Positions 1 through 12,994 of a stretch of DNA of 58,898 nucleotides are shown here, in pieces. Made by a program: the position numbers and the translations under genes. This DNA comes from Rhodococcus maanshanensis NBRC 100610 (GTDB taxonomy: Bacteria; Actinomycetota; Actinomycetes; Mycobacteriales; Mycobacteriaceae): the NCBI RefSeq assembly GCF_001894865.1, contig NZ_BCXA01000045.1, positions 1 to 58,898 of the forward strand, in the 5' to 3' direction. The notes under the pieces were generated by a model. The model was given only the letters and a program-made list of their open reading frames with translations, was not told the origin of the DNA and made no database searches. Within the stretch, counting starts at the first letter, position 1. Each line of letters opens with the position of its first letter.

Positions 1-224
1 GGCGTCGCACCCATCGACGGGGAGATGTTGGCGGACTCACCGGACATGGCGACGGTGACGACGGTGCCGTCGACCAGGGTCTTGCTGATGGTGCCACCGG
101 GCAGCGGCACGAAGGTGTCGGCGTTCGCCGCGCCTGCGGACAGGAAGCCGAGGGCGATCGCGGCGGTGGCACCGACGGCGGCGGTCTGCAGCCCGCGACG
201 CAGGCCGTTCTTACGGGAGTTCAT
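1..224 (-). CDS. MspA-family porin, N-terminal part (runs off the window)
   Basis: Only the first 74 codons are present; the rest lies beyond the left edge. An ATG at 224 opens a basic N-terminus (MNSRKNGLRRG), then an Ala-rich hydrophobic stretch ending in AGAANA, a normal Sec signal peptide. The mature start (ADTFVPLPGG) and the segment ESANISPSMGAT are typical of MspA/NfpA-type porins of the mycolata outer membrane. It lies 98 bp downstream of a second porin of the same family and on the same strand, so the two probably form a pair like NfpA/NfpB of Nocardia farcinica, which form mixed pores. No separate operator is visible in the gap, so I infer co-transcription with the upstream porin. 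Its metal link is only by context. Confidence 0.85.
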   Translation of the reverse strand, partial: MNSRKNGLRRGLQTAAVGATAAIALGFLSAGAANADTFVPLPGGTISKTLVDGTVVTVAMSGESANISPSMGAT

Positions 225-322
225 GAATTCCTCTTTGCTGGTCGATGTTTCAGGATCCGGACTGTGCGTGATCGGTACCCCAGTCGGGGTGCAACACGCG
301 CACGGGCGGCGCAGCCGCCTTG

Positions 323-991
323 CTAGCCGATGCTGAAGGGCTGGCCGTACAGGGTGGTCTTGGAGTAGTTGTCGCCGACGATCTCGACCACCGTGTAGGA
401 ACGGGCCTGGGCGAACCCGCCGCAGTTCTGGATCTCGAGCTGGGTGTCCTGGTATTGGACCGAGTACTTGCCGTTCTTCTTGATGTCCTTGCCCGCGACG
501 TTCACGAACTTGACCTGACCCGCGGAGACCGGGACGGTCAGCGAACCGGAGATCGAGGGACCGGAGAGGTCGATGCCCGCGCCGATGGATCCACCGAGGC
601 CGGTGATGTCGACCTGGCAGCCGACGATGTAGCCGGTGCTGATCCGCGAGACGCCGTGCGTCGAGGAGTTGTTGGTGCCCTTGTCGTTGGTCGCGCCGTT
701 CCAGGGACCTGCCTCGGTCTCCTTGGTGACGCCGGTGACGTCCGCGGTGACCGTGCCCGAGACCCACGCCGTGCGGCCGGCGCCGTTGGCGGCCAGCGAC
801 GGGGAGATCAGGGCGCTCTCGCCGGTGCGGGAGACGACCGCTCCCGGTCCGGCCTTCTGCCCGTCGGGCAGCGGCACGAGGGTGTCGGCGTTCGCCGCAC
901 CGGTCGACATCAGGCCGATCGCCACCGCCGCAGCGGCGCCTGCGCCTGCGATGCGGGCGCCACGGCGCGGGCCAGAGTTGTTGGTGTTCAT
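323..991 (-). CDS. MspA-family outer-membrane porin
   Basis: A complete 222-residue MspA-type porin. The ATG at 991 is chosen because it is preceded by an AAAGGAA ribosome site and directly opens a signal peptide (about residues 1-34, ending GAANA before DTLVPLPDG). The mature protein has the beta-rich pattern of the family, with ESALISPSLAANGAGRTAWVSG, a central GCQVDITG and the ending YGQPFSIG. Such porins form hydrophilic channels across the mycolic-acid outer membrane. Its promoter region contains a Zur-like operator (about 1099-1117) at the end of the ABC-transporter gene. This ties the porin to the metal-uptake operon and suggests it admits metal or a metal-chelator complex. That role is inference; the family call is firm. 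Confidence 0.88.
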   Translation of the reverse strand: MNTNNSGPRRGARIAGAGAAAAVAIGLMSTGAANADTLVPLPDGQKAGPGAVVSRTGESALISPSLAANGAGRTAWVSGTVTADVTGVTKETEAGPWNGATNDKGTNNSSTHGVSRISTGYIVGCQVDITGLGGSIGAGIDLSGPSISGSLTVPVSAGQVKFVNVAGKDIKKNGKYSVQYQDTQLEIQNCGGFAQARSYTVVEIVGDNYSKTTLYGQPFSIG

Positions 992-1098
992 GGATTTCCT
1001 TTTGGTAGGGGCCGAGGACCGGCCGATCGGGGACGAAGTGTGGACGAACAGCGCTCCACGGTCGCGGACTCCGGGCGCCGCGCGGGGACAGCTTCCGT

Positions 1099-1117
1099 TA
1101 ATGGTAACCATTATCGG
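1099..1117 (-). promoter_or_regulatory. Zur-like operator upstream of the porin genes
   Basis: On the plus strand the site reads TAATGGTAACCATTATCGG. Its first 15 bases (1099-1113) form a perfect 7-1-7 palindrome. It matches the site at 12428-12446 at 13 of 19 positions and resembles actinobacterial Zur boxes of the TGAAAATCATTTTCA type. It does not resemble the DtxR/IdeR iron box. It overlaps the last codons of the ABC ATPase gene and lies about 110 bp before the porin ATG. The Zur assignment rests on motif similarity only; another Fur-family member is possible. Confidence 0.6.
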
Positions 1118-2658
1118 TAAGGGAGATTGAAGTGCCCCTGCATTCGACTCCCGTAGGTGGTCGGCGAACGCCCCGACGATTGCCCTGACTCGTCGCGCGG
1201 GCCCCATCGATTCATGTCGACGACATCGTCCGCGAGCGTGTTCACGACGGCGGCATCATGGCTGATGACGAGCAGAGACAGGTCTTGGGTGCGTGTGAGG
1301 CTCTGCAGGATCTCGAGCACACGCTGTTGTGCGACGGGGTCGAGGCCGGTGGACACTTCGTCGCAGATCAGCATTGACGGTGCCGCGGCGATGGCGCGTG
1401 CGATGGCGGCGCGCTGCGCTTCGCCGCCGGAGATCGCGGAGGGTCGTTCCCGCGTGATCTGCTCGTCGAGTCCCACCTGCTCCAGCGCGGTCCGGGCGGC
1501 CGCTGCCGCCTCCCTGTCGGTGGCGCCGCGGAGTCGGACGGGGCCGCGCAGGATCTGTTCCCACACGGTGCGGTAGGGGTCGAAGGCGGCTTTGGCGTCC
1601 TGGAACACGTATCCGATGGCGGCGGTCTGCTCCCGCGTTCGCCGCCGCGTCGTGCCGGCCAGCGGCCGGCCGTCGAGGAAGGCGCGGCCAGCGGTCGGCG
1701 GGTGCAGCCCGGCGAGGACCCGCGCCGCTGTGGTCTTACCGCAGCCGGACGGACCCACCAGCGCCACGCATTCTCCTGGCTTGATCGAGAGCGAGAAGTT
1801 CTGCAACACAGCGTTGTTGCGGAACCCTGCGGTGATGTTGTCCATGGTCACCCGGTCGGTGGTCGGCGCGATGATCCGCGCCGTGGTGCGGTCGGTAGTG
1901 TCCTTGCGTCCCGTTCGGGAGTGCGCCGCGACCAGTGCGCGGGTCTGCGCCTGCGTCGTCGTCAGCAGCATCCCGGTGGTGCCGGCCTCGATGACCTGCC
2001 CGTGGGCCATGACGATCACGTGCCGGGCGACCGAGTGGACGGCGTCGAGGTCGTGGGTGAGGAGCACGACGGTCAGGTCCTGCTCGGACAGCCTGGTGAT
2101 CTCTCGGAGGATGGCCGCCCTGTTGGCTGGGTCCTGCCCCGTGGTCGGTTCGTCCATGATCAGGCAGGTCGGGCTCGTCAGCAGGGTTTGGGCGATGACC
2201 AGGCGTTGCTGTTGACCGCCCGAGAGTTGATGGGGAAAACGGCGGAGCATCTTCGGGTCGCTCGGGAAGCCGGCCCGTGAGAGCGCGTCGGGTACGGACA
2301 CCCGGTGTCCTGCGCTGTGGGCGGCGCGCTCGATGTCGCGGAGCACGGTGCCGATGCGTAGGGCGGGATTGAGCACCGAGGAGGGTTGTTGTGGCACATA
2401 GCCGAATCGCACTCCCTCGGCGTCGCGGCAGTCCATCGACAGTGCCACCCCGGGTCGGTGCTCGCCCATCAGGGCCAATGCGGTGGTGGTCTTTCCGCTG
2501 CCGGAGCTGCCGATGATCGCGGTGACCGCGCCTGCGTGGATGTCGAGATCGACATAGTCGACGAGGACCCGTCCGGGGGTTCGCGCGATGAGCCCGCGAA
2601 CCCGGATGGCGCTATGCCGAGTGGTTTCGGCGACGGTCGCAGGCATTGTCTCGGTCAT
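1111..2658 (-). CDS. Fused double ATP-binding subunit of a nickel/peptide-type ABC importer
   Basis: A 515-residue protein with two complete ABC ATPase domains in one chain, equivalent to DppD plus DppF or NikD plus NikE. The first has Walker A GSSGSGKT (about residue 50), signature LSGGQQQR and Walker B LIMDEPT. The second has GPSGCGKT (about 302), ISGGEAQR and LICDEVSTGLD. The ATG at 2658 overlaps the upstream permease stop by 4 bp and follows a GAGGAG site. It would power import by the two permeases and the lipoprotein encoded just upstream. Its TAA stop (1111-1113) lies inside the porin operator. The first domain has the classic spacing and both look catalytically intact. Substrate is not shown by sequence; context suggests a metal-metallophore complex. 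Confidence 0.88.
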   Translation of the reverse strand: MTETMPATVAETTRHSAIRVRGLIARTPGRVLVDYVDLDIHAGAVTAIIGSSGSGKTTTALALMGEHRPGVALSMDCRDAEGVRFGYVPQQPSSVLNPALRIGTVLRDIERAAHSAGHRVSVPDALSRAGFPSDPKMLRRFPHQLSGGQQQRLVIAQTLLTSPTCLIMDEPTTGQDPANRAAILREITRLSEQDLTVVLLTHDLDAVHSVARHVIVMAHGQVIEAGTTGMLLTTTQAQTRALVAAHSRTGRKDTTDRTTARIIAPTTDRVTMDNITAGFRNNAVLQNFSLSIKPGECVALVGPSGCGKTTAARVLAGLHPPTAGRAFLDGRPLAGTTRRRTREQTAAIGYVFQDAKAAFDPYRTVWEQILRGPVRLRGATDREAAAAARTALEQVGLDEQITRERPSAISGGEAQRAAIARAIAAAPSMLICDEVSTGLDPVAQQRVLEILQSLTRTQDLSLLVISHDAAVVNTLADDVVDMNRWGPRDESGQSSGRSPTTYGSRMQGHFNLPYR

Positions 2659-3464
2659 CTCGAACTCCTCGGGGAGAATTCTCGCGCCGCCGCGCGGGCG
2701 CTCGCGTCGAACAGCAGATTCACGCCCATCGCCAGCGCGATGATCATCACTGCGGGCAACACGACCCCCCAGGGAGCCAGCGCGATGCCGCTGCGGTTGC
2801 GGTCGATCATCACCGCCCAGTCGGTGCCGGTGGCGTCCGCTGTCAGACCGAGGAAGCTCGCGGAAGCGATCAGGTAGATGGCGCCGACGAACCGCAGTCC
2901 GGCGTCCGCGGCGAGAACCGGGAGCAGTGCACGCCCCAGATAGCCGAGGTTTCGGCGCCACCAGGTTTCACGTTGAAGGCGCAGCGCTTCCATGGCAGGG
3001 GTGTGCGCGATGTGCAGGGCCGAGGCCCGTATCAGGCGCGCCGAGTCCGGGAACTGCAGCATTGCCACCGTCGCTGCCAACACGAATGGGTTGGCCTCGG
3101 TGAGGGCGACCACCAGCAGGAGTAGCAGCATCGAGGGCAGTGAGAGCAGCAGATCCAGCGGCCGCATCAACGACTCGTCGATCGCCCGGCGCCGTGATGT
3201 TGCGGCCGTGACCCCCCATGGCACAGCGATCAGGTAGGTGAGCAGGACCGCCGCTGCGGCCACCAGCACCAGCGAGCGGCCACCGAGAAGCAGTTGCGTC
3301 AGTACGTCGCGGCCCTCGGAATCGGTGCCGGCGAGCCAGTTCTCGCCCTGGGTGAAGGCCGGACCGCGGGCACCCTGCTCGGCACTCAGCGGACCGAGCA
3401 TCGCGACGAGGAGCGGCACGGCGGTGAGCACCGCGCCGAGCAGGAAACGTGGGCGTGTGCTCAT
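2655..3464 (-). CDS. ABC transporter permease, DppC/NikC type
   Basis: A 269-residue integral membrane protein of the binding-protein-dependent transport family. It has an N-terminal membrane segment (LLGAVLTAVPLLVAMLGPL), the extracytoplasmic motif GTDSEGRDVLTQLLLGGR typical of DppC/OppC-type permeases, several further hydrophobic helices, and a cytoplasmic coupling-loop region (ASALHIAHTPAMEALRLQ) in place of the usual EAA motif. The ATG at 3464 overlaps the stop of the preceding permease by 4 bp, and its own stop overlaps the ATPase start by 4 bp, so the transporter genes are translationally coupled. With its partner at 3461-4411 it should form the membrane channel of the importer. Confidence 0.87.
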   Translation of the reverse strand: MSTRPRFLLGAVLTAVPLLVAMLGPLSAEQGARGPAFTQGENWLAGTDSEGRDVLTQLLLGGRSLVLVAAAAVLLTYLIAVPWGVTAATSRRRAIDESLMRPLDLLLSLPSMLLLLLVVALTEANPFVLAATVAMLQFPDSARLIRASALHIAHTPAMEALRLQRETWWRRNLGYLGRALLPVLAADAGLRFVGAIYLIASASFLGLTADATGTDWAVMIDRNRSGIALAPWGVVLPAVMIIALAMGVNLLFDASARAAAREFSPRSSR

Positions 3465-4411
3465 GAGGCCTCGCCCGCCGTGGGATTGAGCCGGTACGCC
3501 ATGATGTCCGCGATCGTGTTCACCATGACGGTGATCAGGCCGAACAGCGCGACCAGACCCATCAGCAGCGAGATGTCGCGGCTGCGGATGGCGTCGACCA
3601 GGACTTGTCCGAGTCCACCGACGGCGAACACCGCTTCGATGACGACGACCCCGCCGAGCAGCCAGTCGGCTACCCGGGCGAGATGCTGGATCGCCGGGGT
3701 GAGCGACCCCGGAAGGGCGTGCCGCCACACCACTCGACGCTCCGGCACCCCCAAGCGCAGCGTGTGCCGGACGTGCTCCGAGTCGAGTGTGGTGATCATC
3801 GACGCGCGTACCAACCGCGACAGCGAGCACACCGGGCGGATCACCAGTACCGCCACCGGCAACACCCAGAGTTCCGGCTGCAGCAGCAGTGGCCCGCTGG
3901 CGCCGACCGCCGTAGGGGCGAACAATCCCAGCCCCACCGCGAACACGGCGACCAGGATGATCGCGAGGGCGAACTCGGGTGCCGCGTAGAGGGCCACGGC
4001 CATCCCCGAGATCGCCCGGTCGATCGGCCCGCCCCGCCCGACCGCGGCGGCGACGCCCAATCCGACCGCCAGCGGAACAAGGGCCGCCAGCGCGAGTGCC
4101 GCCAGCGTGAGGGTGGGCGCCAGCGCAGAGAACAGCAGGTCGGTCACCGGGCGGCCGGAGACCGCGGACGTGCCCAGATCGCCGTGTAGCAGCCCGCTCA
4201 TCCAGTCGCCGAACTGGGTGAGCAACGGGCGATCGAGCCCAAGGGAGGTGCGCAGCTGCGCAATTCGCTCCGGGTCGGCATCGTCCGCAGCGATCACCAC
4301 CGCCGCGTCCCCTGGCAGCACCGAGGCCACCGCGAAGACGATGCCGAGCACCCCCAGCACCTGAGCCACCCCGAGCGCGACCCGCACGCCGGCATACCGG
4401 GCGAGGATCAA
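3461..4411 (-). CDS. ABC transporter permease, DppB/NikB type
   Basis: A 316-residue membrane protein resembling the DppB/NikB permease family. It has the N-terminal helix LGVLGIVFAVASVLPGDAA, the typical following segment AQLRTSLGLDRPLLTQFGDWMSGLLHGDLGTS, and the C-terminal EAVFAVGGLGQVLVDAIRSRD signature. I chose the TTG at 4411 because it gives the family length, an N-terminus directly before the first helix, and a 4-bp TTGA overlap with the stop of the binding-protein gene, like most other junctions in this operon. A GTG shortly downstream is an alternative. It pairs with the permease at 2655-3464. Confidence 0.85.
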   Translation of the reverse strand: MILARYAGVRVALGVAQVLGVLGIVFAVASVLPGDAAVVIAADDADPERIAQLRTSLGLDRPLLTQFGDWMSGLLHGDLGTSAVSGRPVTDLLFSALAPTLTLAALALAALVPLAVGLGVAAAVGRGGPIDRAISGMAVALYAAPEFALAIILVAVFAVGLGLFAPTAVGASGPLLLQPELWVLPVAVLVIRPVCSLSRLVRASMITTLDSEHVRHTLRLGVPERRVVWRHALPGSLTPAIQHLARVADWLLGGVVVIEAVFAVGGLGQVLVDAIRSRDISLLMGLVALFGLITVMVNTIADIMAYRLNPTAGEAS

Positions 4412-5985
4412 GCCAGCCACGCCTTGTCGAAACGGGCGTACCCCAGGGTGTTGGTGGGAGCGCTCTGCGCCATCCCCGCCAGCTTCGGCGCGAGTCCGTG
4501 CAGGCTGTCGGAGAATCCCCACACCAGCAGGCCGCCCTCGCTGTACAGCTGTGACTGCATCTGCTGGTATGCGCGGGTGCGTACCCCGTCGTCCGTGCTC
4601 TGGCTGGCGGTCGCGAACAGCGCGTCGAAGTCCGGTCGCCGCCACTGGGTGTAGTTCTTCGACGAGGTCGACAGCATCCGCTGCGCGGTATGCGATTCGA
4701 TGGGCATGGCACCGGAGCGGAAGCTCGACAGCACCCCCTCGTCGAGGGTTCGTGTCCAGTAGGTCGACCCCTCACCGATTTTCACGTCGACCTTCAGTCC
4801 GGCTCGACCTGCCTGCTCGGCGAAGATGTTCGCCGCCTCGACGAATCCGTTGGTGGCACCGGTGGTCTGCAACTCCACGGCCAGGTTCTGCGCGCCGGCC
4901 TTCCGGATCAGCGCCTTCGCCTCGTCCAGATCGACCCGGCGCTGCGGCAGATCACCGGCGTAGTACTTGGTGTCCTTGCCGAACAGGTCGTTGCCAACCA
5001 CCCCCGAGCTGCCGAGCACGGTGGACACCAGCTCGTCGCGGTCGACCAGTGCGAACATCGCCCGGCGCAGGTCCAGGTTGTCGAACGGGGGGCGGTCCAC
5101 CTTCATCGCGAAACCCGACATCGCGCTGCGCGGCGAGCGCAGGATCTGCACCCTCGCATCGGTTTCGTAGGTGCGCGCCGACGTCACACTCATGTCGTCG
5201 GCGTACTCCACCTGACCGCCGAGCAGGGCGTTGACCCGGGCCGTCTCGTCCGGGGCGGTGAGGATTTCGAGCTGATCGACGTGCGGGGCACCGTCCCAGT
5301 AGTCACCGAACCGTGCGGCGACGAAGGACCGGCCCGGCTCGAACGAGACGAAGGTGAACGGCCCGGACCCGATCGGGTGGCTGAAGTCGGTGGTGCCCTC
5401 GGGAATGATGTAGGCGCCGAAGGCCGCCAGCACGTTCGCCAGGTCTCCGCAGGGCCGGGAACACACGAATTCTATGGTGCGGTCGTCGATTTGACGGGAC
5501 CGGGCGATGTCGATCACCTCGAGCGAGGCCCGCGGGCGCAAAGCGTTCTTCGGATCGACGATGCGCTGGTAGGAGTACAGCACGTCCGCGGCCCTCACCG
5601 GCCTGCCGTCGTGGAACACCGCCGGGCGCAGCTCCACCGTCCAGGCGGTGGCGTCTCCGTTGGGTCGCCAGGCGGTGGCGAGCCGCGGCACCGGGCCGAG
5701 GTCGTCCCCGTACTCGACGAGTTTGTCGTAGAGAGCGTTCGAGCGCGCCACGTCGGCGTACAGGTTCGTCTTGTGGGGGTCCAGCACTTCTTGCGCGCCG
5801 CCGCCCGCGAACACCGCGCGCAGCCGGCCGCCGTCCCTCGGCGTTGCGGTGGCCGAGGTGGCGGTCTCGCCCGAGGCGCAGGCACCAAGCAGCACGGCGC
5901 CGGTGGCGGCGGCACCGAGGCCGAGAAAGGACCGTCGGCTCAGGGCAGGCAGTGGGGACTTGATCGATCGGTGGGCCGGATTCAT
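4408..5985 (-). CDS. Tat-exported lipoprotein, family 5 substrate-binding protein
   Basis: A 525-residue solute-binding protein of the nickel/peptide/opine family 5. The N-terminus carries a twin-arginine motif (SRRSFLGLG) followed by a hydrophobic stretch and the lipobox LLGAC, so the protein should be exported folded and anchored by its lipidated Cys. Family landmarks include LVEYGDDLGPVPRLATAW, FHDGRPVRAADVLYSYQRI and GSGPFTFVSFEPGRSF. The ATG at 5985 follows an AAGGAG site. It would capture the substrate delivered through the porins and hand it to the permeases encoded next. Tat export is often used by proteins that bind a cofactor or metal complex before export or that fold fast. The ligand is unknown; a chelator-metal complex is the contextual guess, a peptide the alternative. 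Confidence 0.88.
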   Translation of the reverse strand: MNPAHRSIKSPLPALSRRSFLGLGAAATGAVLLGACASGETATSATATPRDGGRLRAVFAGGGAQEVLDPHKTNLYADVARSNALYDKLVEYGDDLGPVPRLATAWRPNGDATAWTVELRPAVFHDGRPVRAADVLYSYQRIVDPKNALRPRASLEVIDIARSRQIDDRTIEFVCSRPCGDLANVLAAFGAYIIPEGTTDFSHPIGSGPFTFVSFEPGRSFVAARFGDYWDGAPHVDQLEILTAPDETARVNALLGGQVEYADDMSVTSARTYETDARVQILRSPRSAMSGFAMKVDRPPFDNLDLRRAMFALVDRDELVSTVLGSSGVVGNDLFGKDTKYYAGDLPQRRVDLDEAKALIRKAGAQNLAVELQTTGATNGFVEAANIFAEQAGRAGLKVDVKIGEGSTYWTRTLDEGVLSSFRSGAMPIESHTAQRMLSTSSKNYTQWRRPDFDALFATASQSTDDGVRTRAYQQMQSQLYSEGGLLVWGFSDSLHGLAPKLAGMAQSAPTNTLGYARFDKAWLA

Positions 5986-6070
5986 CGGTGTGTAACTCCT
6001 TGTAGGGGAGGGAAGGACCTGAACAGGAAGGGAGGGGAGGAAGCCGTCGCGGGAGGGTTGTGGTCGCGGG

Positions 6071-6907
6071 TCAGATCGCTTGGGCAATGACGTGCAGTCG
6101 GTCCCCGGACATCGGGCTCTCGCCGAGGCCGGTGAGGGCGGCCCGTCCCGATCCGGTGGGCCAGCCGTCGTCGGTTCGGGGGCCGGGGGTGTCGAACATC
6201 GCCCGCACCGCGAAGCCGGCGCGGCGCAGGTGGCCGGTCAGCTCCAGCGGGAACAGGAGCCGCCACGCGGAGGTCTGGACGAGTTCGTCGGTGGAGTCGG
6301 GGAGGTGCCAGCGACGGCGGCGGCGCAGCAATTGGGCGGCATGGTCGATCGAGAGGGTGGTCTCCGCCCGCCAGGTGCGGCCCTGCCACTGAAAGGACGA
6401 GCGGCTTGGGCCGTCGAGCAGTTCTGCGTTGCCGAGGAAGAAGGCGCCGTTGCGCATCTCGGCGACCAGCAGTCCTCCGGGACGTAGGTGGGTACGGGTG
6501 CAGCGCAGGCACGATTCCAGCTCGGTGTCGCTGTGGCAGTACAGCAGTGAGCTGTCCAGACAGATGACTGCGTCGAACCGTTGGCCGACCTCGAAATCCC
6601 GCAGGTCGCCCACCGCTGCGCTCACCCCTGGATAGCGTTGTTGCGCGTAGTCGACCATCGCGGGTGACTGGTCGAGTCCGTGGCAGCGGTACCCGAGTTG
6701 GGCCAGGTAGCCGAGGTCGCGGCCCGTCCCGCACCCGAGGTCCAGGACCGCTGCCGGGTGCGTCCGCGAGCCCACTGTGGCGTCCGGAAGGTACGCCTGC
6801 AGGATCTCGTCGACGAATCTCGCAGCGGTGTGGTCGGGGTCGGGGAACCGTGCCTCGTACAGCGTGGGGTTGTCGGTCAACAGGTTCCGGGACTCGGCGG
6901 TCGTCAT
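6071..6907 (-). CDS. SAM-dependent class I methyltransferase
   Basis: A 278-residue class I methyltransferase. Motif I, which binds S-adenosylmethionine, is VLDLGCGTGRDLGYLAQLG (around residue 50), followed by an acidic GLDQSPAMVDYAQ segment and DAVICLDSSLLYC as motif IV. The ATG at 6907 overlaps the stop of the MFS gene by 4 bp. An 85-bp gap separates it from the downstream binding-protein gene. Being embedded between an exporter and importer and behind four biosynthetic genes, it probably N- or O-methylates the small molecule made by this operon. The acceptor cannot be read from sequence. Confidence 0.8.
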   Translation of the reverse strand: MTTAESRNLLTDNPTLYEARFPDPDHTAARFVDEILQAYLPDATVGSRTHPAAVLDLGCGTGRDLGYLAQLGYRCHGLDQSPAMVDYAQQRYPGVSAAVGDLRDFEVGQRFDAVICLDSSLLYCHSDTELESCLRCTRTHLRPGGLLVAEMRNGAFFLGNAELLDGPSRSSFQWQGRTWRAETTLSIDHAAQLLRRRRRWHLPDSTDELVQTSAWRLLFPLELTGHLRRAGFAVRAMFDTPGPRTDDGWPTGSGRAALTGLGESPMSGDRLHVIAQAI

Positions 6908-8160
6908 GCCTTCACCCCGGCGGGATCGGCGAGCAAGCCCCGGCGCTGCAGCAACCAGACGCCTGCCGCGGAGGCCGCTGCGAGTGCGATGCACACCAGG
7001 GCGCCGGGCCACCCGTTGCCCAGCTCGATGCCGTAGCCGATCAAGGCGTTGCCCCCGGCCGCCGCGATTCCGGACACCAGGTAGAACATCCCGAACAGGG
7101 TGCCCGACATGCGGGAATCTCCATACGCCGGAATCAGTTCCATCACAAACGGCTGGGCGATCATGATCCCGGACTCGAGGATCAGGGCCGAGACCACCAG
7201 CGGCGCCATCGCGAGCGCCACCTGCCCGGCGGTGTGCCCGGGATCGACCAACAGGACGGGCAGCAGCAGGACGAACGCGCCACCCATCAGGGCCAATCCT
7301 GTGGTGATCGCGGCGCCGCGGCTGGTGCGGGCATCGAACCAGCGGGTCAGCCGCACTTGGAACAGCAGGCTGAAGATGGTGGTGCTCAGGAAGAGGACCG
7401 CGACCGCACCCTGCCAGCCGGTGATCCGCCCGGCCAGCGCCGGGTACACCAGGTACATCTGGGTCTGCAAGACGAACATGCCGAGCATGGCGACGGTGAA
7501 CAACACGAATCGGCGGTTGGCCAGCACCACACCCCAGCCGCGGAGCACTGTCGTCGTGGAGGGTTCGACGGCGTGGGCGGGCAGGAACCGCAGTTGCGCC
7601 AGGGTGAGGGCGGCGAAGAGCGCCGCCGCTGCGATGGCGACGGTGCGGAAATCCACCGCGAGCAGGGCGCTGCCGATCAGCGGCCCGGACAGCGCACCCG
7701 CCTGCGCGAAGACGTTGAACGTCGCGAACGCCTCCGCGCGCCGCGTCGGTTCGGCGACCGCGATGTAGGAGCGGACCGCCGGATTGAACAGTGCCCCCGC
7801 CAGTCCCGAGAGGACGGACGCGAGCAGGAGCAGCGGCACGCTGGTGCCGAAGGCGAAGACCGCGAAGCCAACCGATCGCAGCGCGCAGCCCGCGATGATG
7901 ACCCGATGGGGTCCCAGCCGGTCGGCGGCGGTGCCGCCGATCAGGAACAGTCCCTGTTGGCCGAGGGTGCGGACGCCGAGGACGAGGCCGGTGACCGTGA
8001 GGGTCAGGCCGAGGTTTCCGGTCAGGTGCATCGACAGGTAGGGCACCAGCATGTAGAAGCCGGTGTTGACCCCGTACTGGTTGAGCACGAGCAGCTGGAC
8101 GGACCGAGGGAAGCTGCGGAGCAGGGCAAGTGTCCCCGGGCCCGAGGGAGTCTCGGTCAT
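6904..8160 (-). CDS. Major facilitator superfamily transporter, putative metallophore exporter
   Basis: A 418-residue membrane protein with about twelve hydrophobic helices, a basic loop between helices 2 and 3 (GGTAADRLGPHRVI, the MFS motif A region) and a central cytoplasmic loop after helix 6. The start ATG at 8160 and the stop overlap neighbouring genes by 4 bp each. In siderophore and EDDS-type operons an MFS pump of this kind secretes the finished chelator, and that is the likely role here. General drug efflux is the alternative, but the position between biosynthetic genes argues for a dedicated exporter. Confidence 0.82.
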   Translation of the reverse strand: MTETPSGPGTLALLRSFPRSVQLLVLNQYGVNTGFYMLVPYLSMHLTGNLGLTLTVTGLVLGVRTLGQQGLFLIGGTAADRLGPHRVIIAGCALRSVGFAVFAFGTSVPLLLLASVLSGLAGALFNPAVRSYIAVAEPTRRAEAFATFNVFAQAGALSGPLIGSALLAVDFRTVAIAAAALFAALTLAQLRFLPAHAVEPSTTTVLRGWGVVLANRRFVLFTVAMLGMFVLQTQMYLVYPALAGRITGWQGAVAVLFLSTTIFSLLFQVRLTRWFDARTSRGAAITTGLALMGGAFVLLLPVLLVDPGHTAGQVALAMAPLVVSALILESGIMIAQPFVMELIPAYGDSRMSGTLFGMFYLVSGIAAAGGNALIGYGIELGNGWPGALVCIALAAASAAGVWLLQRRGLLADPAGVKA

Positions 8161-9185
8161 CGATCGTCTCCTGCGCGGGGATGCACGCCGAGGCCGATGG
8201 CGTCCCTTGGACGCAACACCCCGTCCTCACCGCCCAGCCCGGTCCACGGATCCCACGCGAGCAGCAGGTGCCCGTCCAGGTCGCACCACCGCGCCAGCGA
8301 GGCCAGATGCACAGCGGGAGCGATGCCGAGCGAGCTGCTCACCAGGCAGCCGAGCATGACGTCCATCCCGCGTTCGCGGGCCGCGGTGGCGATCTCGTGG
8401 GCGTGATAGACGCCGCCGCACTTCGAGAGTTTGATGTTCACGGCGTCCGCGAGGCCGACGAGCGCGTCCAGGTCGGCCAGTGTGTGGATGGCTTCGTCAG
8501 CGATCACCGGAATGTCCGTGCGGCTGCGCAACTCCCGTGCTCCGTCGCGGTCACAGGTCGGTAGCGGTTGTTCGAGCGCGACCACCGGCAGGCCTCTGGT
8601 CTCCTCGAGCACCCGCAGCGCGGCCGCGGCGGTCCATGACTCGTTCGGATCGACGATCAGATCAGCCCCGGGAGCGGCTTCGGTCACCGCCGCCAGCCGT
8701 CTGACCGACTCGGCCGTGTCGGCGTCCGTCTTCACCTTCAGTAACCCGACTCCGCTTTCGGCCAGGCCGGTGGCCACGGCTGCCATCTCGTGGGGTGACC
8801 CGATGCCGAGGGTGCGGGAGATGGGAATCTCGGTCGGTAGCGGCAATCCGAGATGCGCCGCGACCGACATCTCGGCCGTACGAGCCCGGTGCTCGGCAAT
8901 CGCGGACCACAGTGCGGCGGCGACCGCGGGATGCACATCCGGGAGAACCGACTCCAGGCCGGCGTCCACGCCCGCGCACCGGTCACGGACCATCCGCAGC
9001 TGTGCCTCGATTCGGTCCCGGTCCAGTTCGGCGTACACCGAGGTGACGACCTCGCCACGGCCGACGACGTCGGAGTCTGTGTCGGTCACCGTCACCGTGA
9101 CGGCCTCACGTGCGGACATCACCCCGCGGCTGATCCGGAACGGGCGAGTCAACTCGAGGGTGTGTGTTTTCCAGGTCAGTTTCAT
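8157..9185 (-). CDS. Enolase-superfamily racemase/epimerase, dipeptide-epimerase type
   Basis: A 342-residue member of the muconate-lactonizing-enzyme subgroup. The catalytic set is visible: KVK at residues 150-152, metal ligands D179 (VDPNESW), E205 (ALEQPL) and D230 (VIADEA), and the second acid/base Lys in NIKLSKCGG (252 or 255). This arrangement is that of L-Ala-D/L-Glu and related dipeptide epimerases, which invert an alpha carbon through a Mg-stabilised enolate. The N-terminal capping domain is present. Both ends overlap neighbours by 4 bp. In this operon it may epimerise a dipeptide-like intermediate made by the ATP-grasp ligase. Recycling of peptidoglycan peptides is the usual alternative role, but nothing nearby supports it. 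Confidence 0.82.
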   Translation of the reverse strand: MKLTWKTHTLELTRPFRISRGVMSAREAVTVTVTDTDSDVVGRGEVVTSVYAELDRDRIEAQLRMVRDRCAGVDAGLESVLPDVHPAVAAALWSAIAEHRARTAEMSVAAHLGLPLPTEIPISRTLGIGSPHEMAAVATGLAESGVGLLKVKTDADTAESVRRLAAVTEAAPGADLIVDPNESWTAAAALRVLEETRGLPVVALEQPLPTCDRDGARELRSRTDIPVIADEAIHTLADLDALVGLADAVNIKLSKCGGVYHAHEIATAARERGMDVMLGCLVSSSLGIAPAVHLASLARWCDLDGHLLLAWDPWTGLGGEDGVLRPRDAIGLGVHPRAGDDR

Positions 9186-10255
9186 CTCGCGGTCGCCTCC
9201 GTCCTGGCACTGACGCTTCCGATCGGCGAGCGCACCGATTCACACCGGGTCCAGCACCAGGTGGGGTCTTCGCAGTCGTCGATTTCGTGCGGCTGCGTGT
9301 GTGGCGGCTCGAGTAGGTCTCTGCGGCGGCACCAGTCGTCGTCGAAGATGGTGCGCAGGTAGCGATCCGGGCCGTCCGGGAAGATCGTGATCACGCTGCC
9401 CGGCCACCTGGCGGCCGCCCAGCCGGCGACGGTCGCGGTCGCGCCGGTCGACCACCCGCCGGTGTGGAAACCGCCGCGTGCCAGACCACGGCAGGCGTGG
9501 ACGGCCTCGTTGGGGCCGACCCAGTGGACCTCGTCGAACATGTCGTAGCGGACATTGCCGGGGTGCATGCTGCTGCCGAGTCCGCGCATGACGCGGGGGG
9601 TGGCGGGTTGACCGAAGATTCTCGATCCGAGCGCGTCTACGCCGATGATCCTCAGGTCCGGCCACAATTGGCGCAGCCGGTGCCCGACTCCGCTGCTGTG
9701 ACCTCCTGTTCCCACGCTGCACACCAGCACCTCGGCCCGCTCGATGCCCGCCGCGGTGAGTCCGCTGACGATCTCGTCGGCGAGGGCGTGATAACCCGCG
9801 GCGTTGTCCGGATTGTCGTATTGGTTGGGCCAATACGCGTCGTCGCCTGCCAGGATGTGGTGCAGGGCGTCGAGTCGGGCCTGCTGCCACCCGCCCTCGG
9901 GATGGGGTTCATCCACGATCACCAAGGTGGCACCCAAGGCCCGCAACAGATTCCGCATCGCCGGCTCGAGTTCGCTGTCCACCACCAGCGTTATCGGGTG
10001 CCCCAGGGCCTGGGCGACGTACGCCAGGCCAACGCCCAACGTACCGCTGGTGGATTCGACGATCCGGGCGCCGTCGCGCAGCTCTCCACGCCGGCGTGCG
10101 CCTGCCAGCATCGACTGCGCGGAGCGCGCCTTGAGCCCGCCGATCCCCAGTGCCTCGATCTTTGCGAAGTAGCCGGGATGGGGCTGCGGCACCGGAGTGG
10201 TGATGCGCACGAGCGGGCTGTGTCCGACACGCTCGAGCGGTTCGAAGACGGTCAT
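9182..10255 (-). CDS. Cysteine-synthase-like PLP enzyme, SbnA-like
   Basis: A 357-residue fold-type II PLP enzyme related to cysteine synthase and to SbnA/AesA enzymes that build diaminopropionate-type precursors. The probable Schiff-base lysine is K42 in GIGGLKARS, an unusual version of the common GGSxKDR motif. The phosphate/carboxylate loop is STSGTLG (from about residue 69), and a Gly-rich CSVGTGGHSSG binds PLP phosphate. The ATG at 10255 is preferred because it gives the operon's 4-bp overlap; a GTG three codons upstream is possible. It likely replaces a beta-leaving group of an activated serine with an amine or amino acid. No SbnB-like dehydrogenase is present, so the coupled product might be used directly. 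That is inference. Confidence 0.8.
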   Translation of the reverse strand: MTVFEPLERVGHSPLVRITTPVPQPHPGYFAKIEALGIGGLKARSAQSMLAGARRRGELRDGARIVESTSGTLGVGLAYVAQALGHPITLVVDSELEPAMRNLLRALGATLVIVDEPHPEGGWQQARLDALHHILAGDDAYWPNQYDNPDNAAGYHALADEIVSGLTAAGIERAEVLVCSVGTGGHSSGVGHRLRQLWPDLRIIGVDALGSRIFGQPATPRVMRGLGSSMHPGNVRYDMFDEVHWVGPNEAVHACRGLARGGFHTGGWSTGATATVAGWAAARWPGSVITIFPDGPDRYLRTIFDDDWCRRRDLLEPPHTQPHEIDDCEDPTWCWTRCESVRSPIGSVSARTEATAR

Positions 10256-11100
10256 CGCGGACACGCCGCCCGGTACAGGTAGATCGAGCTGGTGTCGCCG
10301 GTCAGCCAGAAGAACGGGTACGGCTCTGCCGAGAGTGCGTCGACGCCGTGCCCGAGCAGCTCCCGGGCCACCGCCGCCCCGCTCTGCGCAAACAGCGTGA
10401 CCGGCACCGGTCGCCCGCTCGCCGCCACCAGGTCGAGCAGGGGGTCGAGGGTGCCGTTGCCGAGCATCATTCCGCTGGCCAGCACCGCATCGGAGCCGTC
10501 GAGCCCATCGGCGAAGTCGGTGACGATCGGCTCACCCCACTCGGTGGTACCGCCCTTCAGGTCGCACGGCACGTACCGCAGGCCGCGCTCACGCAGGGAC
10601 GCGAGCAGGGAGTTGACCACCCCGATCACCAGCACCCGGCCACCAGGCGGTGTGTCGATCAGCCCCGTCACTGCCCTCGCCCGGGTCAGTGAGCGCTGCA
10701 GCGAATCGCCAGGATCCACCTGGACGGCTACCGCGCGGGCATCGAACGGGTGCGGGCGCAGGTGGGCGAGGTAGGCGTCGAGCGCTGCGACCCGAACGGC
10801 CAGCTCGTCGTGGTGCAGTAGCTCGATGACCGGCCTTCCCGCGCAGGCGTGGACCACTTCTGGGTCGATCGATCCGGGTTCGACGGCACACGATCCCGTT
10901 GTCGAACCGACCCGCAGGCTGATCACGTGATTGCGGTAACCGCCGCTACGCCCGTTGTGCCGCACGCATTGTGAGGTGGTGAATGCCACCGCGACCGTGT
11001 CGTCGACCGGGGGCATCAGGTCGGGATCGCTGCGGTAGCGGTCGAGGAGCGCGCTGACGGGCCCCGACTTCGCGGTACCGATCTGTGCGGCGGTGGTCAC
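10252..11100 (-). CDS. DUF364-type (putative heavy-metal chelation) Rossmann-like protein
   Basis: A 282-residue cytoplasmic protein. Its C-terminal half resembles the DUF364 Rossmann-like domain, called putative heavy-metal chelation domain, with GRVLVIGVVNSLLASLRERG, ASGMMLGNGTLDPLLDL and PVTLFAQSGA..LLGHGVDAL. The N-terminal half would correspond to the enolase-N-like DUF4213 module. The start is GTG at 11100, overlapping the ATP-grasp stop by 4 bp (GTGA). Members of this family are found near metal transport or molybdenum-related genes, but no reaction is established. Its tight coupling to the PLP enzyme and ATP-grasp ligase suggests a biosynthetic or metal-handling step. I recognise the fold family with moderate confidence only. 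Confidence 0.62.
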   Translation of the reverse strand: MTTAAQIGTAKSGPVSALLDRYRSDPDLMPPVDDTVAVAFTTSQCVRHNGRSGGYRNHVISLRVGSTTGSCAVEPGSIDPEVVHACAGRPVIELLHHDELAVRVAALDAYLAHLRPHPFDARAVAVQVDPGDSLQRSLTRARAVTGLIDTPPGGRVLVIGVVNSLLASLRERGLRYVPCDLKGGTTEWGEPIVTDFADGLDGSDAVLASGMMLGNGTLDPLLDLVAASGRPVPVTLFAQSGAAVARELLGHGVDALSAEPYPFFWLTGDTSSIYLYRAACPR

Positions 11101-12386
11101 GGTGTGAACTCCTCGCCGTAGGTGAGGGAGATCGACGCCAGCAGGTTCTCTGCGAGCGGCCGGGCACCGGCCCGATCGGGCGAGACGGTGATCACGGAAC
11201 CCAGGTAGCTGTTGTTGTCGACTGCCGCAGTCGTTTTGTGCCCCGCCGCCTTGAACGACGAGGACACCACCGCTGGGTGATCGGCGACCGCTGCCGTGCC
11301 GTCAACGCTGGTGAGGATGCCCGCGTCGCTTGGTACCAGCATGCAAACCGCCGCACTCTGTGGCCGCTTTGTGTCCTGCCGGGCCGGTGGAGACGCCAGG
11401 TGGTGGGGTGTGTCGCCGAGCGCGAGCTCGACCGCGACCGTCGGCAGGTCGATCCCGGTGACGTGCCTGATCAATTCGGTGATCTGGTTGCCGGCCGGAC
11501 GAGGGTTGATCTCGATGATGCGCGGTCCGGCCGCGGTGAGCCGCAGTTCGGTGTGCACCACGCCGTGATCGAGCCCAACCGCGCAGAGCGCGGCCTCCGC
11601 GGTCGCCACCAACTGGGTGCGCACTGTCTCCTCGACGGCGGCGGGGAACATGTGCCCGGTCTCCACGAAACCTGTTGCGCCGCCGAGGCTCTTGTCGGTC
11701 ACCCCGACGGTGTGGATCGCGCCGTGTCGAATCCAGCTCTCGACGCTGAACTCCGGTCCATCGAGGAACTCTTCGAGCAACACCGCGGGATCCCGTCGTT
11801 GTCCGCGCGCATTGACGGCGAATCGATGCAGATACCCGGCTGCGGTTTCGAGCGCGGCCCAATCGTCGGCGCGCTGCACGAACATCCCGGCGCACAAGTC
11901 CGTTGGCTTGACCACCAGCGGGAAGCCCACGATCTCGGCCGCTTCGCGAAGTCGGGTCGCGTCATCGGCCGGCGCGGTCGCGTGACGCGGACCGGGAAGG
12001 CCGGCGCGGTCCAACGCCGCTCGGGTCAGAGCCTTGTTGCAGGCCGACTCGACCGCTTCCGGGATGGGGCCGGGAAGCCCAAGGGCATCGGCGATCCTCG
12101 CGGCGGTCGGGAGGTAGTAGTCGCAGCTCGTGAGGACTCCATCGATCGGACTGTCCGCGTGGATTCGTCGCGCGGCGTGGAGCGCTGCGGCCGGGTCGTT
12201 GGTCTCCGCGGTGACCACGGCGCGGCCGAGGCGAAGCGGATGCGGTGAGCCGTCGGGCGCGCACTGTGGGTAGTGCCCCGGGCTCCTGGTCAAGAAGGTG
12301 AACTCGGCACCGAGTTCGGTTACCGCCCTGGGTAGGAGCGTTCCCATCGCACCGACCCAGCTCTCCACTAGCAGTAGGTGTGGCAC
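11097..12386 (-). CDS. ATP-grasp ligase, first gene of the metallophore-like operon
   Basis: A 429-residue ATP-grasp enzyme of the carbamoyl-phosphate-synthase/amino-acid-ligase type. It has an N-terminal preATP-grasp segment (LLLVESWVGAMGTLLPRAVTELG), an ATP-binding lysine strand VGFPLVVKPTDLCAG and the Mg-binding IIEINPRPAGNQ. Such enzymes activate a carboxylate with ATP and join it to an amine. The GTG at 12386 is chosen over upstream starts because it follows GAGGAAAGGCGAGGG and puts the N-terminus at the family position. It lies about 38 bp downstream of a promoter whose spacer holds a Zur-like box. As the first gene of the run it probably makes the amide or peptide bond of the operon's product. 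Confidence 0.8.
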   Translation of the reverse strand: MPHLLLVESWVGAMGTLLPRAVTELGAEFTFLTRSPGHYPQCAPDGSPHPLRLGRAVVTAETNDPAAALHAARRIHADSPIDGVLTSCDYYLPTAARIADALGLPGPIPEAVESACNKALTRAALDRAGLPGPRHATAPADDATRLREAAEIVGFPLVVKPTDLCAGMFVQRADDWAALETAAGYLHRFAVNARGQRRDPAVLLEEFLDGPEFSVESWIRHGAIHTVGVTDKSLGGATGFVETGHMFPAAVEETVRTQLVATAEAALCAVGLDHGVVHTELRLTAAGPRIIEINPRPAGNQITELIRHVTGIDLPTVAVELALGDTPHHLASPPARQDTKRPQSAAVCMLVPSDAGILTSVDGTAAVADHPAVVSSSFKAAGHKTTAAVDNNSYLGSVITVSPDRAGARPLAENLLASISLTYGEEFTP

Positions 12387-12423
12387 CCGTGATCCCTCGC
12401 CTTTCCTCGGATTCAGAACGCGA

Positions 12424-12452
12424 ACAGTAATGAGAATCGTTATCAATATCAA
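12424..12452 (-). promoter_or_regulatory. Promoter with Zur-like operator in the -35/-10 spacer
   Basis: Reading the minus strand, TTGATA (12447-12452) and TACTGT (12424-12429) are separated by exactly 17 bp. The spacer and flanks contain the operator whose plus-strand sequence is TAATGAGAATCGTTATCAA (12428-12446). Its core TGAGAATCGTTATCA differs from TGAAAATCATTTTCA, a Zur-box form, at three positions. A repressor bound here would block RNA polymerase directly. Expected result: the twelve-gene locus is off in zinc-replete cells. The promoter is strong on sequence; the identity of the regulator is inferred. Confidence 0.68.
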
Positions 12453-12554
12453 GAGCGGCACTGCGAAGTCCTGGATGGATGGTGTGCGGGTGCGTGCTCG
12501 AAGCGTGGGGCGAGCGCATGGCGGTCGTCGCCGGTTGGGGCCGCGCCATCGGGT

Positions 12555-12588
12555 CGCCAATTGACAACGAAAGTCATGTCAATTGGCG
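12555..12588. repeat. Perfect 11-bp inverted repeat in the long intergenic region
   Basis: The arms CGCCAATTGAC (12555-12565) and GTCAATTGGCG (12578-12588) are exact reverse complements around a 12-base loop. There is no T-run, so it is not a classical terminator. It lies about 105 bp upstream of the metallophore promoter and about 400 bp before the divergent secreted hydrolase gene. A binding site for a dimeric repressor of either gene is plausible. Confidence 0.55.
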
Positions 12589-12994
12589 AGATTGAAGTGT
12601 TTAACTTCTGAGTGGGAGCGCTCTATGGTTTCATCGCACCGGCGGACCACACCCCGGAGCGCCCACGCTCGGGACAGTAATTGGATCGCCACAGGCAGAG
12701 AGAGCGGCTCGGGACCGCGGCCGCCAGTGGGCACTGATGGTCCACATCGGTCGGATCGGAGACCGGCTTCGCGGAGGTCCGGCTCGAGATTCGAGTTCGG
12801 ATTCCACCGGCTCGCCAACTCGATAGGCATGCGGCCATTTCCCGCGTGCGATCCGGTCGTTCGTTCGGCGCAAACTGCATGTCCGTGGAAGGTCGTGGAT
12901 CGACCCGCTGCTCGGTCAACCCAATGGCGATCGTTCGGGACGGTCTGCCAGACGCCACAAGTCACACATCACGCTGATCGGGAGTGCACACTTC
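12589..12994. other. Intergenic stretch without a recognisable gene
   Basis: About 400 bp between the inverted repeat and the secreted hydrolase gene. Short open frames on both strands show no family resemblance, no plausible ribosome sites and no membrane or signal features. It presumably holds the leader and promoter of the gene at 12995. I see no convincing RNA gene. Confidence 0.5.

Follow-up and report, generated by a model that had tools for sequence, protein, structure and literature searches.

The window analysed here is contig NZ_BCXA01000045.1 of Rhodococcus maanshanensis NBRC 100610 at its full length of 58,898 nucleotides. Its minus strand carries, from position 12386 down to 1111, a ten-gene operon in which all ten frames are open from start to stop. 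A sequence-only reading of the same DNA had taken this operon for an apparently undescribed metallophore-type system under a Zur-like switch. The operon and the site in front of it comprise the following parts, with match E-values in brackets.

12431..12445, no strand assigned: very probable Zur box TGAGAATCGTTATCA (read on the minus strand, TGATAACGATTCTCA), placed 45-59 nt upstream of the ATP-grasp gene
11097..12386, minus strand: ATP-grasp ligase with LAL_C2 domain, L-amino acid ligase (LAL) type (Pfam ATP-grasp_4 1.8e-18, LAL_C2 1.8e-12)
10252..11100, minus strand: predicted DUF364-fold protein, putative core enzyme of the operon (Pfam DUF364 5.5e-4, sub-threshold)
9182..10255, minus strand: SbnA-like pyridoxal 5'-phosphate (PLP) enzyme, likely beta-replacement (TIGR03945 3e-70, sub-threshold; SbnA is the top PDB match)
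8157..9185, minus strand: dipeptide-epimerase/N-acyl-amino-acid-racemase-like enzyme of the enolase superfamily (MR_MLE_C 1.6e-36; DgcA 3.3e-69, below cut-off)
6904..8160, minus strand: predicted major facilitator superfamily (MFS) exporter, MdtH-like (MFS_1 1.7e-28; MdtH 1.7e-43, below cut-off)
6071..6907, minus strand: class I S-adenosylmethionine-dependent methyltransferase (Methyltransf_25 9.4e-19)
4408..5985, minus strand: twin-arginine translocation (Tat) lipoprotein, solute-binding protein of the SBP_bac_5 (NikA/peptide) family (SBP_bac_5 9.7e-72)
3461..4420, minus strand: ATP-binding cassette (ABC) permease B, Nik/Opp type (BPD_transp_1 1.2e-29; Opp2B nickel permease 7e-64, below cut-off)
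2655..3464, minus strand: ABC permease C, Nik/Opp type (BPD_transp_1 7e-17; Opp2C 2e-32, below cut-off)
1111..2658, minus strand: double ABC ATPase with two ATPase domains (ABC_tran 7.4e-56, two stretches; NikD and NikE models below cut-off)

Pfam was searched with eleven proteins (the operon and the adjoining MspA porin) and NCBIfam with ten. All gene families named in the sequence-only reading were found in their places on the minus strand, mostly joined by 4-bp overlaps. Seven such overlaps were counted (ATP-grasp/DUF364, DUF364/PLP, PLP/epimerase, epimerase/MFS, MFS/methyltransferase, permease B/permease C, and permease C/ABC ATPase). The remaining junctions are one of 13 bp between the genes for the binding protein and permease B, whose start is uncertain (4420 or 4387), and an 85-bp gap from the methyltransferase gene to that of the binding protein. 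The ATP-grasp gene has a GTG start with the ribosome-binding-site-like sequence GAGGAAAGG upstream. Its product combines an ATP-grasp domain with LAL_C2, by which L-amino acid ligases are recognized, and its best PDB match was 3vot, the L-amino acid ligase BL00235 (9.5e-31). The epimerase-like enzyme was closest in the PDB to 1jpd, an L-Ala-D/L-Glu epimerase. In the N terminus of the binding protein, MNPAHRSIKSPLPALSRRSFLGLGAAATGAVLLGACAS, a twin-arginine motif (RRSFLG) and a lipobox (LGAC) were recognized by eye.

The site at 12431-12445 matched 10 of the 10 specified positions of the 15-bp palindrome TGANAANNNTTNTCA / tGaNNatSatNNtCa. The latter is the motif derived for Zur by chromatin immunoprecipitation in Streptomyces coelicolor, and the available portion of the same source quotes taaTGaNAANNNTTNtCANta for actinobacterial znuA genes and gives rpmG/B as Zur targets in S. 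coelicolor (PMC5472717). A narrower first motif, TGANAATCATTNTCA, had no match in the genome of R. maanshanensis, and the more general one was used instead. The strict form of TGANAANNNTTNTCA occurred once in the 5.67-Mb genome, namely as the box itself; a reversed control pattern also occurred once. Thus, the count alone proves nothing, and the case for a Zur box is carried by conservation. Of 77 upstream regions, counting that of the window, 71 matched at least 8 of the 10 fixed positions and six matched 7; among 1540 Markov-shuffled controls, 33 reached 8 or more. In a larger, overlapping set the same threshold was reached in 85 of the 92 scored distinct loci of ten-gene-like form (type A). 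When up to one mismatch was allowed, the window's genome contained 19 sites for the motif versus 5 for the reversed control. Neighboring gene families were searched for two of these 19. One near-match, TGACAATCATTTTCG, lies between the gene for the ribosome-hibernation GTPase MRF (E 2.3e-181), which is a Zur target in mycobacteria, and a divergent bL28 gene; the other, TGCAAATGATTGTCA, lies between the genes for AztD (E 1.3e-77) and a divergent MspA porin. The genome holds three Fur-family genes, one of which overlaps an ArsR/SmtB-like gene (ArsR recognized by eye), which is how smtB and zur are arranged in mycobacteria. Because the box fits the published motif, is conserved upstream of relatives, and has near-matches flanking the MRF/bL28 and AztD/MspA gene pairs, it is very probably a Zur box, in line with the Zur-like switch of the sequence-only reading.

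That reading had suggested a search for co-occurrence of the biosynthetic families, and the gene set did recur in various soil actinomycetes, including members of Rhodococcus, Streptomyces, and the Pseudonocardiaceae. When plasmids were searched with the DUF364 protein, nine records were found, all from actinomycetes. The ten-gene order is annotated in plasmid pRZP2 of Rhodococcus sp. ZPP and nearly so in p1 of Streptomyces angustmyceticus, where permease C was found by tblastn; tblastn also detected the order in Rhodococcus sp. JS3073, Embleya NBC_00888, and Streptomyces NBC_01591. Rhodococcus aetherivorans DSM 44752 (L013) and Streptomyces violens (L018) likewise have the ten-gene form. Per-gene protein identity was 66-89% in Rhodococcus and about 39-64% in Streptomyces and Pseudonocardiaceae. 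A scan of 84,980 species, each represented by a single genome, yielded 292 DUF364 relatives, the best 80 of which were kept, so that more distant types are under-represented. Among 89 loci chosen by DUF364 (three belonging to the distant type C described below and some cut by contig ends), the PLP enzyme was present in 89, the MFS protein in 85, the ABC ATPase in 83, the binding protein in 80, each permease in 79, the ATP-grasp ligase in 76, the epimerase in 76, the methyltransferase in 73, and MspA in none. Such co-occurrence in 89 related loci indicates that the arrangement is not due to chance. At the level of the order, 63 DUF364 places were found in 54 of 397 genomes, and 60 of them were fetched (G243, a weak second place in G244, and G000 itself were left out). 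A search of the class at the stricter cut of 1e-90 found 10 of 394, a figure not comparable with that for the order. In total, 149 loci were collected, which after subtraction of five duplicates of named ones left 144 distinct loci, the window not being among them: 93 of type A, 15 of a minimal type B, 29 of type C, and 7 others. A PLP enzyme accompanied DUF364 in 148 of the 149. Two loci appear to be damaged copies: L168 retains only the ATP-grasp gene, part of DUF364, the permeases, and the ATPase, and L009 has a cut ATP-grasp gene and gave no match for methyltransferase or binding protein.

Among proteins of solved structure, the one closest to the PLP enzyme is SbnA. Against the NCBIfam model for SbnA (TIGR03945), the window's enzyme scored 236.7 bits, below the cut-off of 349.95. 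According to the available portion of a study on SbnA, the latter joins O-phospho-L-serine and L-glutamate, and Arg132, Tyr152, and Ser185 select phosphoserine (PMC12414870). In the alignment, these residues corresponded to Arg127, Tyr146, and Gly182 of the window's enzyme, and these three together with the catalytic Lys42 were invariant in 87 of 87 proteins (the window and 86 loci). A C-N bond-forming beta-replacement is therefore the likely reaction. Given the homology to SbnA and the retention of two of the three phosphoserine-selecting residues, the biosynthetic core probably makes a chelator of the aminopolycarboxylate type that is decorated by the other enzymes. The DUF364 protein of the window scored 20.0 bits, below the Pfam gathering cut-off of 23.0, and relatives passed it (L026 with 23.1 and L006 with 43.3 bits). 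Its AlphaFold model (mean predicted local distance difference test score 91.8) matched 3l5o, the structure for family PF04016, best in Foldseek (E 8.6e-11, TM-scores 0.59/0.67), and the protein is predicted to have the DUF364 fold with an enolase-N-like and a Rossmann-like part. The authors of 3l5o proposed an interdomain active site and, from genome context, a part in metal chelation and in the making of siderophore- or pterin-like compounds; the available portion of that paper draws no link to a PLP partner, a product, Zur, or a cobalamin riboswitch (PMC2954201).

When the operon was compared with known systems, the closest chemistry was that of the SbnA step of staphyloferrin B in Staphylococcus aureus, the catalytic Lys and the phosphoserine-selecting Arg and Tyr being kept in the window's enzyme. 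Unlike the staphyloferrin B locus, however, the window has DUF364, the LAL-type ligase, the epimerase, and the methyltransferase, and Pfam and NCBIfam scans of the operon proteins gave no match for SbnB or an NIS synthetase (nonribosomal peptide synthetase (NRPS)-independent siderophore synthetase) among the matches listed. The sbn locus is under iron control, whereas the window's operon carries a Zur box. The claim of the sequence-only reading that the enzyme set differs from those of known loci holds as regards SbnB and NIS synthetases; the PLP enzyme, being a relative of SbnA, brings the operon closer to staphyloferrin B chemistry than that reading had allowed. With the staphylopine system Cnt, which is controlled by zinc, the operon shares biosynthesis, export, and reimport by an SBP_bac_5 Nik-type ABC transporter, the models for CntA, CntC, CntD, and CntF scoring below cut-off. 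The nicotianamine-synthase-like enzyme and the opine dehydrogenase of staphylopine and pseudopaline had no match among those listed in the same scans, in line with the absence of an opine dehydrogenase that had been noted from the sequence. Zinc chelators built on N-(carboxyalkyl) amino acids are also represented by aspergillomarasmine A (AMA), which reportedly sequesters Zn2+ (PMC8319579), and by ethylenediamine disuccinate (EDDS), the production of which is Zur-controlled; the predicted core product of the window would belong to the same class. The ATP-grasp ligase, the epimerase, and DUF364 set the operon apart from the AMA and EDDS pathways as these are generally described. A further actinobacterial parallel, compared by description only, is the coelibactin cluster of S. 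coelicolor, a zincophore cluster that the available text presents as Zur-repressed and of the enterobactin type (PMC5472717). In the open-access literature and a few subscription journals, no paper among the matches listed dealt with this gene set, with a DUF364 metallophore cluster, or with a riboswitch-controlled cobalt metallophore, which agrees with the earlier description of the system as apparently undescribed.

Taken with these comparisons, the operon is probably a Zur-repressed unit that makes, exports, and reimports a small amino-acid-derived zinc metallophore (zincophore), and its ten-gene form most likely represents a Zur-controlled zincophore system with a new type of biosynthesis. 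The metallophore-type assignment made from the sequence is supported by comparative genomics, i.e. by the co-occurrence of biosynthesis, exporter, and importer across genera together with the siderophore enzyme SbnA as nearest solved relative of the PLP enzyme; the metal-binding product itself is a prediction. Under zinc-replete conditions, Zur would bind at 12431-12445 and silence the operon, and zinc starvation would release it. The PLP enzyme would eliminate phosphate from O-phospho-L-serine and add the amine of an amino acid to the resulting aminoacrylate, giving an N-(2-amino-2-carboxyethyl)-amino acid, an aminopolycarboxylate chelator, with DUF364 presumably performing a second core step alongside it. 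In whatever order, the LAL-type ATP-grasp enzyme may attach an amino acid through an amide bond, the epimerase-like enzyme may invert a stereocenter, and the methyltransferase may methylate. The MFS protein is predicted to export the product, and the Tat lipoprotein and the Nik-type ABC transporter would return the metal complex.

Several observations count against the zincophore assignment. Ser185, the third selectivity residue of SbnA, is replaced by Gly in all 87 of the 87 proteins compared, so that the exact substrate of the PLP enzyme may differ from that of SbnA, and no phosphoserine-making enzyme is among the operon genes, the cell's own serine pathway being assumed as the supplier. Nine operon proteins with NCBIfam matches all scored below the curated cut-offs and the DUF364 protein had no match, so that substrates are not assignable by family. 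A scan of positions 1-13100 for sigma-70-type promoters found no promoter-like site. As to the box, 7 of the 92 scored type A loci missed the threshold of 8 of 10 (a wider scan recovered L009, and the other six hold sites with 7 of 10), the counted site of L059 is oddly placed and may be due to chance, and seven of the 16 further near-matches in the window's genome fall inside frames with a bias in third-codon-position GC content (GC3). The loci compared are related and many come from one genus, hence the counts are not independent. Finally, the operon was found in one of six genomes of the genus, the window's own, and it is plasmid-borne in two Rhodococcus strains. For these two reasons the ten-gene form looks like an accessory operon.

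A reduced form of the system came to light among the relatives. Nine of the 80 kept loci, from Saccharopolyspora, Prauserella, and a Pseudonocardiaceae metagenome-assembled genome, had no ligase, epimerase, or methyltransferase and consisted only of genes for DUF364, the PLP enzyme, and the MFS protein, followed in six cases by a Nik-type ABC transporter. Across the 15 distinct loci of this type B (in which L021 and L111 encode identical PLP proteins and L133-L135 are near-copies), these three genes were always present, and the ABC transporter was adjacent in 10; loci without it include L111, L024, L039, and L123. Saccharopolyspora spinosa (L026) and Prauserella rugosa (L058) are among the organisms with a type B locus. 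All 15 loci were preceded by a cobalamin riboswitch (Rfam RF00174) above the gathering score, at 85-103 bits, which in the first nine was located just upstream of DUF364. Detection across the 149 loci relied on a hand-made cobalamin pattern, and the Rfam model was applied to the 15 type B loci and five others. The pattern was found upstream of 0 of 92 type A and 0 of 29 type C loci, and RF00174 in none of the five type A or C loci scanned (four ten-gene loci and one of type C). Two other switches were tested for type B and not supported: a Zur box was seen in 0 of 15 at 8 of 10 positions (best scores 5-7), and a consensus for the iron regulators DtxR/IdeR was matched at 9-11 of 19 positions in nine loci, within the 8-13 of shuffled sequences. 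In each of seven type B genomes, 7-9 cobalamin riboswitches were matched, and a single match, in G358, fell short of the gathering score; with so few per genome, one just upstream of a given gene is unlikely to arise by chance.

In a tree of PLP enzymes with 107 rows (63 of the 94 type A loci, window included, all 29 of type C, and the 15 of type B), type B formed one clade (100/100, with a bootstrap that had not fully settled) inside a group of types A and B; its sister is a set in which the Nocardiaceae form, and with it the window, is found. The Fisher values of 2e-13 and 1e-18 overstate independence, type B being one clade that reflects one switch and its maintenance. Since type B is a single clade, the change of regulator most simply appears to have happened once and then to have been kept.

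Further evidence on type B came from genome G389, in which six other cobalamin riboswitches precede genes for MetE, the ribonucleotide reductase alpha subunit, CobN, a ChlI/ChlD-type putative cobaltochelatase, and two importer-type proteins. The latter scored below cut-off and were a binding protein nearest to the F420-0/EitA families and a NikA-like ABC component. The DUF364-PLP-MFS locus of this genome, L111, has no adjacent importer, and the NikA-like binding protein is found at a separate locus, L174; it is 61-74% identical to those of eight type B loci and 41-47% identical to those of seven type A loci (window included). Both halves of this split system keep a cobalamin riboswitch of their own. 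The simplest reading is that type B directs a cobalt-scavenging metallophore expressed when vitamin B12 is short, and the minimal form of DUF364, PLP enzyme, MFS protein, and Nik-type ABC transporter in Pseudonocardiaceae would have cobalt as its target. Corrinoid salvage, the main alternative for type B, is at odds with the presence of an export pump and with the homology to the form under Zur control.

The third form, type C, contains DUF364, a second PLP subfamily, mostly an MFS protein, and an importer of the FecCD/Peripla_BP_2 kind (L141-L150, L153, L155-L167, L169-L170, and L004-L006). A GHMP-type kinase is encoded in 25 of the 29 loci, as might be expected of a cluster that provides a phosphorylated substrate for itself. 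Despite the iron-type transporter, Zur-like boxes were detected within 350 nt upstream in 21 of 29; a wider and more permissive scan (up to 6.5 kb), which is weaker evidence, found sites in 7 of the 8 others. One hybrid locus, L139, combines the ATP-grasp ligase, DUF364, the PLP enzyme, the MFS protein, a GHMP-kinase-like gene, an iron-type importer, and a Zur-like box. Some genomes hold two types: A and B occur together in G318, G389, and G306, B and C in G358, G185, G213, and G377, and A and C in G167, and Saccharopolyspora sp. HNM0986 has both type A (L055) and type B (L021).

From these three forms we tentatively propose that DUF364 and an SbnA-like PLP enzyme are the minimal engine of an unrecognized two-enzyme class of metallophores, the metal being set by the regulator: Zur for the ten-gene and the GHMP-kinase/FecCD forms, and the cobalamin riboswitch for the stripped-down form, which would be a cobaltophore. 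We regard this generalization as quite possible, if short of probable.

For the ten-gene form, other explanations were weighed against the zincophore. Regulation by Zur might coexist with a metal that is not, or not only, zinc, if the product is a chelator of broad range through which cobalt or nickel is taken up as well. We consider this unlikely. The importer is indeed nearest to nickel, cobalt, and peptide families, at scores below the cut-offs, and the sister clade is under a cobalamin riboswitch; however, type A loci have the Zur box in 85 of 92 and the cobalamin pattern in none. Moreover, importers of the SBP_bac_5 family also serve zinc metallophores such as staphylopine, whose CntA model gave a match below cut-off, so that the importer type does not set the metal.

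The operon could instead serve zinc sparing or an unrelated small-molecule pathway, e.g. a dipeptide antimetabolite made when zinc is short, with the ABC transporter taking up a peptide or precursor. Dipeptide antibiotics such as bacilysin are known to be made with ATP-grasp enzymes of the LAL type, BacD was among the matches, and an epimerase and an MFS protein would fit an antibiotic pathway. Against this stands that, apart from the MFS protein, no evident self-protection gene was found among the ten by the Pfam and NCBIfam scans, and that type B lacks the ligase, epimerase, and methyltransferase yet keeps DUF364, the PLP enzyme, and the MFS protein in 15 of 15 loci and an adjacent importer in 10 of 15, with the importer elsewhere under its own riboswitch in the one further type B genome checked (G389). 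An antimetabolite pathway is thus very improbable. Hardly credible, in our judgment, is a degraded or partly assembled cluster with a chance palindrome in front. It would account for the single genomic match of the strict motif, equaled by the reversed control, and for the absence of the operon from 5 of 6 genomes of the genus, but the ten frames are open, the box is conserved upstream in other genera, and two near-matches flank genes of a known Zur-target kind.

If the zincophore reading is right, DUF364, a structural orphan since its structure paper of 2010, would gain a hypothesis for its function. Genome mining usually looks for NRPS, opine, or NIS enzymes, and the system would add a class of small metallophores that has none of them. 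The same gene core sits behind two different metal-related switches, which suggests that simple chemistry has been reused to collect cobalt. The riboswitch branch makes it testable whether a dedicated secreted cobalt chelator feeds vitamin B12 synthesis, and in the nine genomes with two types side by side each could be deleted separately in one organism.

Downstream of the operon and on its other side lie three further genes.

323..991, minus strand: MspA-type porin, a lineage-specific neighbor (MspA 3e-24)
1..224, minus strand: further MspA-like gene, truncated at the contig end (51% identical to the first across 47 amino acids; Pfam E 0.043, below cut-off)
12995-15091, plus strand: homologue of M19-type membrane dipeptidases, oriented divergently to the operon, with a ricin-B-like match below threshold

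The gap from the ABC ATPase gene to the first MspA gene is 119 bp and that between the two MspA genes 98 bp; a terminator scan revealed nothing terminator-like on the minus strand between the ABC ATPase and MspA. The sequence-only reading had included the porins in the system. The genes are real and have kin at the Zur-like box next to AztD, but with MspA in 0 of 89 related loci they were rejected as a conserved part of the operon. The porin behind the operon is 89.5% identical to the AztD-linked MspA of the same genome, which supports the view that the porins serve zinc uptake here, and they probably provide passage through the mycolate membrane as a lineage-specific addition. To the eye, the AztD/MspA intergenic region (L100 1471-1640; G000 contig C21 near 111954) seems to contain two Zur-like palindromes, TGCAAATGATTGTCA and TGGAAATCATTTCCA, which suggests that an MspA porin under Zur control and a zinc chaperone form a pair here.

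The M19 dipeptidase gene was likewise rejected as part of the system, tblastn having found no homologue in the 149 oriented loci. Between this gene and the promoter region of the operon, at 12554-12589, lies a perfect inverted repeat with arms of 13 bp (TCGCCAATTGACA / TGTCAATTGGCGA) spaced 10 nt apart, possibly an operator for another regulator.

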